Shown here: piece by piece, positions 22,130-27,101 of the stretch
Layout of the letters: every line of letters begins with the position of its first letter
How positions within the stretch are numbered: position 1 is the first letter of the stretch
Assembly (NCBI GenBank): GCA_012033055.1
Contig: JAAUPR010000016.1
Location: forward strand, 1 to 59,613
DNA: 59,613 nt
Reading direction: 5' to 3'
Source: Limnothrix sp. RL_2_0
GTDB lineage: Bacteria; Cyanobacteriota; Cyanobacteriia; Cyanobacteriales; MRBY01
Made by a program: the position numbers and the translations under genes
The notes under the pieces: model-generated
What the model was told of the DNA's origin: nothing
Seen by the model: the letters and a program-made list of their open reading frames with translations, nothing else
Databases searched by the model: none

Positions 22130-23506
22130 TTACGGCTGAAGGTTGTGGCATAGTTCCCGGAAATGATTGCCGCGTTCTTCAAAGCTGTTGTATTGATCGA
22201 AGCTGGCACAGGCAGGGGAAAGGAGCACGACTTTGGGTTTGAGCTCGGGGATTAGTTCAACGCTGCGGGCGATCGCCTGATCCATGGTCTCCAAAATTTC
22301 ATACTGAGTGTAATTATTCTCTTGAAGCATTTGGGAAAATTGCTCGGCGGCAGCACCAATGAGCAAAACTTTGATGGCCTTTGTTTTGATTTTGGCAATC
22401 CACTGGCTAGCATCTCCTTCTTTCGGATCACCGCCTGCGATGAGGATAGCAGGGGCATCCACGGCGATTAGACCGACTTCGGCGGCATCGTAATTTGTGG
22501 CTTTACTGTCGTTAATAAAATCAATATCTTGGTAGCGACAAATATGTTCTAAGCGGTGGGGTACGCCGGGGAATGTGGCAATGGCTTCGGCGATCGCCCC
22601 TTTTTCAATCCCTGCTAACCGTGCAGCAGCGATCGCTACCAACAGATTTTGCAAATTATGATCGCCCACCATTTTCAGGAGAGAAATCGGCATAATTAAT
22701 TCGCCGAACGCCTTCACCCAAGCATCTTGGATAAATACTCCTTTGCTCGGTTCGCAGGGCAAATCGTCAGCACCATTTACCGTTGTCCAGTGGGCGTTGG
22801 GCCATTCTGAAGCCTTTGATCGCAGGTAGGGATCATTGGCATTTAAAATCTGACGACGACTGCGTTTCAGCAAAGACGCTTTAATGTTGTAATAATTTTC
22901 GATGGTGTAATGGCGCGCTAAATGATCCGGTGTAAAAGTTGTCCAGATGCCAATTTGGGGCTGCAATGTGGCTGAGGATTCGCTTTGATAGCTACTCACT
23001 TCGGCGATCGCCCAGTCCGGTTTCTCAGAACGCATCGCCAATTCACAGGCCGCATTGCCAATATTGCCGCAAGCCGGAGCATCCAACCCCGCCGCCTTAA
23101 AAATAGCCTCCACCAAGGCCGTTGTCGTCGTTTTACCGTTCGTGCCCGTGATCGCGACCCAAGGAATCGTTTGGAGATTTTGCCAGGCCAATTCCATCTC
23201 GCCGATGGTTTCAATCTGCCGTTGACGCGCTTCCTTGAGGAAGGGGATATCCCAAGGCACTCCCGGACTCGCCACAATTAAATCGGGCTGATCCGCCTCA
23301 ATGCTCGGCTGGTGACCCAACTTCACCGTGACCCCTTCTCCGGCCAAAGTCTGCTGTAGCGTCCGCAACGTTTCATTATCTTGGCGATCGCCTAGCACCA
23401 CATCCCAGCCCAACCTTTGCAAAAGCTTTGCCGCCGCAATCCCAGAACGCCCTACCCCAATCACCAAAGCCTGACCCATCGCACTGACCCGATCCAAAAA
23501 CATCAA
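22130..23506 (-). CDS. murD: UDP-N-acetylmuramoyl-L-alanine--D-glutamate ligase
   Basis: MurD adds D-Glu to the peptidoglycan precursor in the cytoplasm. The Mur ligase features are present: [19 protein letters not shown] (N-domain nucleotide fold), the ATP-binding [19 protein letters not shown], and SSYQSE with a catalytic Glu before it. [17 protein letters not shown] and [13 protein letters not shown] follow in the C-domain. ATG 23506 is taken; ATG 23479 (MGQALVIG) would remove nine residues and is plausible. Confidence 0.95.
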
Positions 23507-23545: not shown

Positions 23546-24301
23546 CTACCCAAACCGATAACCAAACCCCCGCACCGTAATCAAATACTCCGGCTGACTA
23601 GGATCAAGCTCCAACTTCTCCCGGAGCCAGCGAATATGCACATCCACCGTCTTCGTATCCCCCAGAAAATCAGCCCCCCACACCTGCTCGATCATCTGAT
23701 CCCGAGACCAAACCCGACGCGGATAGCTCATAAACAACTCCAACAACCGATACTCCTTAGGCGACAAACTCACCTCCTCACCCCGCACCACAACCCGGCA
23801 CTCCTCAGGAAACAAAGAAATATCCTTAAACTGCCGAACCATCTGCGGCGGCGTACTCTTAATAAACTGCTGACGACGAAGTAACGCCCGACAACGAGCC
23901 ACCAGCTCCCGCAAACTGAAAGGCTTCGTTAAATAATCATCCGCCCCCACCTCCAAACCCAAGACCCGATCCGTCTCACTCGCCTTCGCACTCAAGATCA
24001 AAATCGGAATCGTATTTCCCTGATAACGCAGAAAACGACACAAATCCAAACCATTCACTTCCGGCAACATAATGTCCAGAATTACCAAGTCCAGAGGCAT
24101 ATCCGGTGCATTAAACTCAGGATTTTGCAACATATTTAGAGCCGATCGCCCATTATCCGCAAAAAACACATCATAGCCCTCCTCTTGCAAGCCCATAATG
24201 ATCATTTCACGAATGACCTCCTCATCCTCCACCACCAGAATTCGCGCCTTAGTTGACAACTCAGCATCCAAAGTATTTGACATTAAATCAAGAGCAAGCA
24301 T
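23546..24301 (-). CDS. OmpR/PhoB-family response regulator, SphR-like
   Basis: The receiver has the acidic pair EDEE, phospho-Asp in LVILDIMLPEVNG, and Lys in DDYLTKPFSLRELVARCR. The DNA-binding winged helix has SLSPKEYRLLELFMSYPRRVW, TKTVDVHIRWLREKLE and VRGFGYRFG. The wording around both domains resembles SphR, the phosphate-starvation regulator of cyanobacteria, but no SphS kinase is adjacent. Instead the upstream gene on this strand, 89 bp away, is a standalone photoreceptor-like GAF protein. ATG 24283 (MSNTLDAE) is an alternative start. Confidence 0.8.
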   Translation of the reverse strand: MLALDLMSNTLDAELSTKARILVVEDEEVIREMIIMGLQEEGYDVFFADNGRSALNMLQNPEFNAPDMPLDLVILDIMLPEVNGLDLCRFLRYQGNTIPILILSAKASETDRVLGLEVGADDYLTKPFSLRELVARCRALLRRQQFIKSTPPQMVRQFKDISLFPEECRVVVRGEEVSLSPKEYRLLELFMSYPRRVWSRDQMIEQVWGADFLGDTKTVDVHIRWLREKLELDPSQPEYLITVRGFGYRFG

Positions 24302-24390
24302 AGATTTATAGATTTATAGAGTTACGCAAACATATACACCAAAAGATCAAGACTTGGCTAGTCAATGTGATCCTTTATACCGTTTCCCAG

Positions 24391-24888
24391 TTATTTCTTC
24401 CCCTGAATTAATGATGGCGCTTGAGCGAATATCACCGACTGAGATTGAATCCTCTCCACATCAAGATCAGACCATGCCCTCGGTTCACTGTGGTGAGCCA
24501 CCAACAATCCCCACAAACGCTCCTTAACAATAATTGGTGCTACCAGATCTGCCCGAACACGAATCGATCGCAAAAAATCAAGATGACACTCATCAAAATT
24601 AGTTAGCTCAATATCTTCAACCCTTAATACTCGCCCACCCAAGTACAAATTGGCATAGTTGTCATTAAAGCAGTCATCCGCTCCCGTTGACCCCAAGATA
24701 GAGAAGTCATCATGGCTAAGAGACTCAACAATTACTTGTCCTTTCCATGGGCGGTAAAAATAATACGCAACCACCCGATTCACTTGAAGCTCTCTCCTCA
24801 GTTTCGTCACAATATTTTGGAGGAGCCGATTACGGGCAAGAGTTCGATTCAAACGCTCATTAACACGATTAAGACTGCGGTTAAACAT
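24391..24888 (-). CDS. Standalone GAF protein with cyanobacteriochrome DXCF and CH motifs
   Basis: A 165-aa single GAF domain and nothing else. Family landmarks of bilin-binding GAF domains are in order: RVVAYYFYRPWKGQVIVES (38-55), a DXCF motif as D71-D-C73-F74, YLGGRVLRVEDI, the canonical chromophore pair C101-H102 in FDECHLDFL, and LWGLLVAHHSEPRAW (125-139). Carrying both C73 and C101 is the hallmark of DXCF cyanobacteriochromes, which sense violet/blue and green/teal light. No kinase, cyclase or DNA-binding output is attached. Bilin binding is inferred from motifs. It precedes the SphR-like regulator on the same strand. Confidence 0.75.
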   Translation of the reverse strand: MFNRSLNRVNERLNRTLARNRLLQNIVTKLRRELQVNRVVAYYFYRPWKGQVIVESLSHDDFSILGSTGADDCFNDNYANLYLGGRVLRVEDIELTNFDECHLDFLRSIRVRADLVAPIIVKERLWGLLVAHHSEPRAWSDLDVERIQSQSVIFAQAPSLIQGKK

Positions 24889-25091: not shown

Positions 25092-25127
25092 AAGAAAAAG
25101 CTTCCACCTCGATTTTGAGATGAAAGC
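25092..25127 (-). terminator. Rho-independent terminator of petH
   Basis: On the minus strand an 11-bp stem (GCTTTCATCTC with GAGGTGGAAGC, two G-U pairs) and short A-rich loop precede TTTTTC. It lies about 75 bp past the petH stop. Confidence 0.8.
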
Positions 25128-25202
25128 CATTATTGTTTATTCGAAATTCAATCGCTGTTACTAGTAAATCTGAAGAGAACTAACTCTCAACACCTATTTT
25201 TT

Positions 25203-27101
<1,899 letters not shown>

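Follow-up and report, generated by a model that had tools for sequence, protein, structure and literature searches.

A stretch of 59,613 nucleotides from Limnothrix sp. RL_2_0 (hereafter the window) encodes a small GAF protein that carries the cysteines of a cyanobacterial light sensor and lacks an output module, which raises the question of what such a domain does alone and whether the SphR-like response regulator gene behind it is its target (Table 1). The original prediction had described the 165-aa protein as a single GAF domain with a DXCF cysteine (C73) and a canonical Cys-His pair (C101-H102), and Pfam and phmmer searches bore this out. The Pfam GAF model (PF01590, E 1.3e-15) spans residues 20-149, a GAF_2 model matches below cut-off, and at an E-value of 0.001 Pfam found no domain beyond these two. 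In a phmmer search against the PDB, C73 and C101 aligned with the TePixJ cysteines that sit in DPCF and ECH, and the protein has both sequence features of the DXCF subfamily, the Cys-His pair and a second Cys within Asp-Xaa-Cys-Phe. Cyanobacteriochrome GAF domains are usually fused to an output such as a kinase, a cyclase or a chemoreceptor, but the open frame here is 183 aa long and has no such module; all 22 members of alignment A1 have only GAF-type Pfam models and no PHY domain.

Table 1. Features of the standalone GAF locus, in order of transcription (window coordinates).
Feature	Position	Strand	Remarks
petH (upstream), a ferredoxin-NADP reductase gene that includes a CpcD linker domain	25203..26393	minus	NF058510, 683 bits, above cut-off
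Hairpin resembling a terminator, in the petH-GAF intergenic stretch	25099..25128	minus	weak: 2 sites in region against 2.1 in shuffles
Standalone GAF protein gene	24391..24888	minus	165 aa, ATG start; DXCF-type cyanobacteriochrome domain without output module
Y42-Y43-F44-Y45 codons	24754..24765	minus	Y43 and Y45 are the standalone-clade signature
DXCF motif codons D71-D72-C73-F74 (second Cys is C73)	24667..24678	minus	aligned with the TePixJ motif
C101-H102 codons, canonical bilin-binding Cys-His	24583..24588	minus	Cys and His each in 134/134
Block ACTAGCCAA accompanying TTTTGRTGTATATGTTKGCGTAA	24354-24362	minus	six-genome comparison within the genus
Element TTTTGRTGTATATGTTKGCGTAA upstream of SphR, 23 nt	24322..24344	minus	one IUPAC pattern fits six genomes of the genus
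SphR-like response regulator (receiver and Trans_reg_C)	23546..24301	minus	probably not a functional part of the GAF system
murD-like Mur ligase, downstream of SphR	22130..23506	minus	Pfam

Several observations, among them the invariant cysteines described below, place this gene beyond a chance reading frame. Identity to the 21 other standalone sequences in alignment A1 is 45-65%. When the gene is compared with five same-genus copies, codon third positions change most and second positions least; against one of these, L014, there are 54, 34 and 104 changes at codon positions 1, 2 and 3.

An AlphaFold2 model built from 22 standalone sequences (mean pLDDT 86.7, pTM 0.82) has a helix at residues 2-34 and C-terminal helices at 141-156 and 158-161. 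Its best fold matches in the PDB are GAF domains of cyanobacteriochromes or proteins derived from such a domain, including 6mgh (miRFP670nano), 4fof and 3vv4 (TePixJ), 6oap and 5dfx (Slr1393 GAF3). In other cyanobacteriochromes the C-terminal helix continues into further domains. The standalone protein stops shortly past helix 141-156, so nothing is left to bear an output domain.

Such proteins are common in the class. Using a profile of 22 sequences, we found at least 125 standalone copies in at least 124 of its 388 genomes, the source genome included, a lower bound as up to nine candidates were scored per genome. Their frames are 136-267 aa long. Among the matches listed, full-length standalone copies had E-values of 2.2e-65 or better, followed by a shortened copy in G345 (3.8e-59) and the first multi-domain protein (8.1e-56). 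A search of 40 genomes, again including the source genome, gave a similar separation: in 19 of them the best match lay in a frame of 163-206 aa with an E-value of 3.7e-42 or better, and the other matches listed lay in frames of about 500-2230 aa at 2.1e-35 or worse. By the family codes of the tool, the standalone form occurs in at least 26 families, 20 from the class search and six more from the 40-genome search, and named records with a close relative include Trichocoleus, Leptolyngbya, Tildeniella and Nodosilinea. No standalone copy was among the matches listed in 264 of the 388 genomes, indicating that many lineages manage without one. Decay or misassembly seems to have affected two copies: L154 (in G163) contains an in-frame stop, and L197 (in G345) is truncated at its N-terminus. 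Carriage by mobile elements was considered and rejected on these searches: 50,697 phage records contained no match at an E-value of 1e-5, no match was confirmed in viral contigs, and the seven matching plasmid records were at most 35.2% identical (five named as other proteins, one without annotation and one named GAF domain-containing).

The original prediction would have been refuted by homologues in which C73 and C101 are not conserved, and within the standalone family we found none. The 148 loci collected gave 134 distinct sequences (101 groups at 90% core identity), and G69, C73, F74, A79, Y82, C101, H102, L106, P118, W126 and W139 are identical in all of them. H132 and R86 are kept in 133. 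D71, the motif Asp, is kept in 119 and replaced in 15 (Ser in eight, Glu in three, Asn in two, Arg and Ala in one each). Multi-domain relatives are less strict: their 45 distinct GAF domains include 34 with both cysteines and 40 with the canonical Cys (before near-identical ones were merged, 35 and 43 of 51); these domains are the best-scoring relatives plus those of the source genome and not a random sample. In the source genome, a 1466-aa frame at C160:76224-79238 (L003) has six tandem GAF domains by profile, one with both cysteines and three without the canonical Cys, and these are apparently partly degenerate cyanobacteriochrome modules.

The standalone proteins also share a signature of their own. 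Of the 134 sequences, 127 have both Y43 and Y45, and neither is present in any of the 45 multi-domain GAF domains. In a maximum likelihood tree that combined 50 standalone sequences, of which 19 were selected and 31 taken at random, with the 51 unmerged multi-domain ones, a single branch with SH-aLRT support of 100 separated the two groups; the tree was made by a quick method without bootstrap, and three long multi-domain branches, two of them joining, were flagged. A single origin of the standalone form is the simplest reading of this tree.

We favour, with moderate confidence, the reading that the protein is a small single-domain DXCF cyanobacteriochrome photoswitch that acts in trans on a partner encoded elsewhere. 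Its parts differ in how safely they can be predicted: the domain very likely binds a bilin, likely undergoes a photocycle, and on balance probably signals through a partner. Phycocyanobilin would be attached covalently at C101, and C73 would make a reversible second thioether at C10, possibly with isomerisation to phycoviolobilin as in other DXCF members, to give a photoswitch with a violet/blue-absorbing form and a longer-wavelength form. This scheme follows the description of DXCF members in PMC11284453, where the canonical Cys holds the chromophore at C3-1, and the second Cys forms a reversible bond at C10 and takes part in phycoviolobilin isomerisation, leading to blue/green switching; the same paper describes one member that isomerises without its second Cys. 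Since both cysteines are kept, blue/green switching is the first expectation, although sequence cannot give the colour. The absence of an output module means that any signal must act in trans, and the light-dependent shape of the domain would then be read by the partner protein. Y43 and Y45 are unique to the clade and are placed by the model on its first strand, and they are candidate residues for binding it. Some observations count against this reading, namely the replacements of D71, the faster change of the GAF protein relative to SphR, the stop-bearing and truncated copies, and the many genomes with no listed copy.

When ORFs around the 134 standalone loci were clustered by single linkage, the most frequent neighbours recurred in just 19 loci and no co-conserved partner gene emerged, and the largest clusters were confined to one genus or family, as they were among 47 loci; cluster names were assigned by eye except where Pfam was used, and some clusters consist of shadow ORFs from the opposite strand. 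The 19 loci with RecO-like and MFS-like neighbours all belong to a single genus, and an NdhH-like gene lies near the GAF gene in nine, eight of one family and one of another. Glycosyltransferase-like (eight loci) and cation-efflux-like (six loci) genes each occur across two families. A neighbour conserved across families was rejected, the clusters being confined to a genus or family or spanning two families. One 13-locus cluster chains together unlike two-component proteins, with SphR in seven loci (those of the window's genus and of G023) and kinases or other regulators, some of them more distant or unassigned, in the rest. In Trichocoleus (L009:1658-5707) and in L019, the standalone GAF gene is preceded on the same strand, at a distance of 198 bp, by an ethylene-receptor-type kinase with an ETR1_N N-terminus, several PAS domains and one GAF domain, a candidate partner in that lineage. 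In L165 and L169, receiver-kinase ORFs lie on the opposite strand, convergent with the GAF gene. That differing two-component proteins adjoin the GAF gene in some lineages counts against an orphan protein; such neighbours may hint at a two-component partner, or may merely reflect the abundance of these genes.

The two-component neighbour in the window is the SphR-like regulator, called SphR here. The GAF gene was said to lie directly upstream of the regulator on one strand, and it does, with a gap of 89 bp. PhoB is the best NCBIfam model for the regulator, below its cut-off. Among 24 SphR loci outside the genus, taken from 33 matches with up to 1.5 kb to each side, a kinase-like ORF adjoins SphR in 17 and a creatininase-like ORF in 12 (both judged by eye; the one tested of the latter is a Creatininase). 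The one kinase of the 17 that was tested, at L087, is a HisKA/HATPase protein whose best models are PnpS and PhoR, below cut-off. The PhoB-type model and the kinase neighbours make SphR-like a fair name for the regulator. SphS-SphR homologues are present in all thermophilic cyanobacteria studied in PMC9953108, according to that paper.

SphR also appears to have upstream sequence of its own. The element TTTTGRTGTATATGTTKGCGTAA (24322-24344, minus strand) is probably a promoter or leader belonging to SphR. In the form TTTTGGTGTATATGTT it recurs ahead of SphR with up to three mismatches at L079, L081, L084, L088, L089, L091, L092 and L095, for the most part 45-60 bases from the start codon. These are 8 of the 24 loci, all in other families; the first 16 bases of the element were compared with the 100 bp before SphR, and 300 dinucleotide shuffles gave a mean of 0.04 and a maximum of 2. 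At four mismatches the count is 11 loci against 0.37 in shuffles (at most 3), and at five it is 12 against 2.3 (at most 7). Relative to the SphR start codon, ten of the 11 copies lie at -44 to -61; the eleventh is at -19, in a locus whose annotated start may be wrong. About half of the 24 loci have no recognisable element. A second match in the source genome (C118:24206-24228, three mismatches) appears by eye to fall within an unrelated coding region and was set aside as chance.

The original prediction took the proximity of the two genes to mean that light could modulate SphR through protein contact, and in a form restricted to the genus, with the GAF domain as light input to SphR or to an SphS-SphR pair, this idea can be set against a wider comparison. 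We searched 79 of the 132 known GAF-bearing genomes for SphR, dropping repeats from large genera, and 77 were positive at the threshold. The two genes lie within 5 kb of each other in seven of the 77, six of them from the genus of the window, and were not seen to do so in the other 70; both genes are on one contig in 24 genomes, and in 53 they are on separate draft contigs, so that the distance is not measurable. All six genomes of the genus have PetH, GAF and SphR in this order and direction, with GAF-SphR gaps of 56-116 bp (MurD then follows in five), which favours a link, as do the two-component genes that adjoin the GAF gene in a few further lineages. The seventh genome, G023 (L080, L025), belongs to another family; it provides the one GAF gene visible at the 24 SphR loci outside the genus, 1.1 kb from SphR and separated from it by a creatininase-like gene that runs in the opposite direction, a closeness that is either chance or the trace of an old one. 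However, the upstream element is shared with some families that have no adjacent GAF gene, and if SphR has its own element, the GAF gene in front of it is probably incidental, although read-through from the GAF gene into SphR may occur. The two genes also differ in distribution, SphR being present in 39 and the standalone GAF in 19 of the 40 genomes searched, and in rate of change, with 64.8% identity to L014 for the GAF protein against 93.6% for SphR, and 34 second-position changes in 165 codons against 5 in 251. Moreover, the source genome encodes an SphS-like kinase on another contig (C135:4534-5736, 46% identical to the L087 kinase). The proposed role of feeding light into SphR by contact is thus unsupported, and we regard it as improbable even within the genus; as a general function of the GAF family, an SphR partnership was rejected on synteny and on the upstream element.

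Two further explanations do without signalling by light. A bilin-binding protein might store, shield or hand over phycocyanobilin, much as the BBAGs, globin relatives that bind bilin, are described in PMC10151467 as having unknown function. The missing output domain, the lack of a widely recurring neighbour and the identity of the cysteines in all standalone sequences suit such a carrier, but the DXCF Cys matches the canonical one in conservation, each being present in all 134 sequences. In known members this Cys is tied to isomerisation and colour switching (PMC11284453), and its equal strictness suggests that photochemistry is what is kept; we consider a carrier unlikely. Small GAF proteins with two cysteines in every sequence could also be switches of another kind. 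GAF domains bind many ligands, and the C73/C101 pair might respond to redox state or to another ligand in a protein that is no photoreceptor. Against this, conservation extends to positions common to the multi-domain relatives (H102, W126 and Y82 in all 134 sequences, H132 and R86 in nearly all), and the nearest solved relatives are, by name, cyanobacteriochromes and phytochromes, so that we give a redox or ligand switch very little credence.

A photoswitch acting in trans would matter beyond this locus. In the current understanding, a cyanobacteriochrome is a sensor domain that controls an enzyme or receptor to which it is joined in cis. We tentatively propose, as a possibility somewhat short of even, that the standalone proteins form a widespread, single-origin family of diffusible light-dependent adaptors that bring a blue/green signal to a partner encoded elsewhere. 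If so, light input would be a separable subunit instead of a fused domain, and an output-less family with both cysteines in at least 26 families would mean that wiring in cis is not the sole use of these domains. The family gives a clear target in the search for the partner and could supply optogenetics with a candidate photoswitch that is a single domain by nature, and for the window itself the attractive idea that light controls a phosphate regulator is weakened. No natural standalone cyanobacteriochrome family appeared in the open-licence titles and abstract openings surveyed, in a field with much of its literature in subscription journals.

Comparison with named systems helps to place the protein. 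The gene downstream resembles SphR of the SphS-SphR system, and a relative's kinase neighbour best matches the PnpS/PhoR models, but the GAF gene is not beside SphR in nearly all other families examined. Among cyanobacteriochromes, the red/green XRG type, with its WXDXXL motif and no second Cys, was rejected, as the second Cys is present throughout the window family; G69, the invariant residue two before the motif Asp, also differs from the XRG motif. That the Asp columns of the two types correspond is supported by the account of DXXF and DX(Y/H)LQ motifs in PMC5578081. The best sequence match in the PDB is 6oap (E 7e-23, or 8.8e-39 with the profile), the GAF domain of a dual sensor histidine kinase by name, which has Tyr (DQYF) at the position of the DXCF Cys, whereas the window protein is standalone and has C73. 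The closest fold match is miRFP670nano (6mgh; TM 0.90 when scaled to the target length and 0.82 when scaled to the query), of the NpR3784 lineage, which is like the window protein a single domain in laboratory use, but is engineered and also has Tyr at the DXCF position. That lineage is described in PMC11284453 as lacking the second Cys, and with C73 present here and Tyr in the lineage's derivative, identity with it was rejected. Among the DXCF cyanobacteriochromes, in the TePixJ GAF structures (3vv4, 4fof, 2m7u), the fold and both cysteines align column by column with the window protein at about 30% identity, with Ala and Asp at Y43 and Y45. The blue/green TePixJ GAF, however, comes from a methyl-accepting chemotaxis protein, and the window gene encodes the GAF domain alone. 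Domain type and chemistry are known and no new class is proposed; the part that seems new is a conserved, output-less form of apparently single origin.
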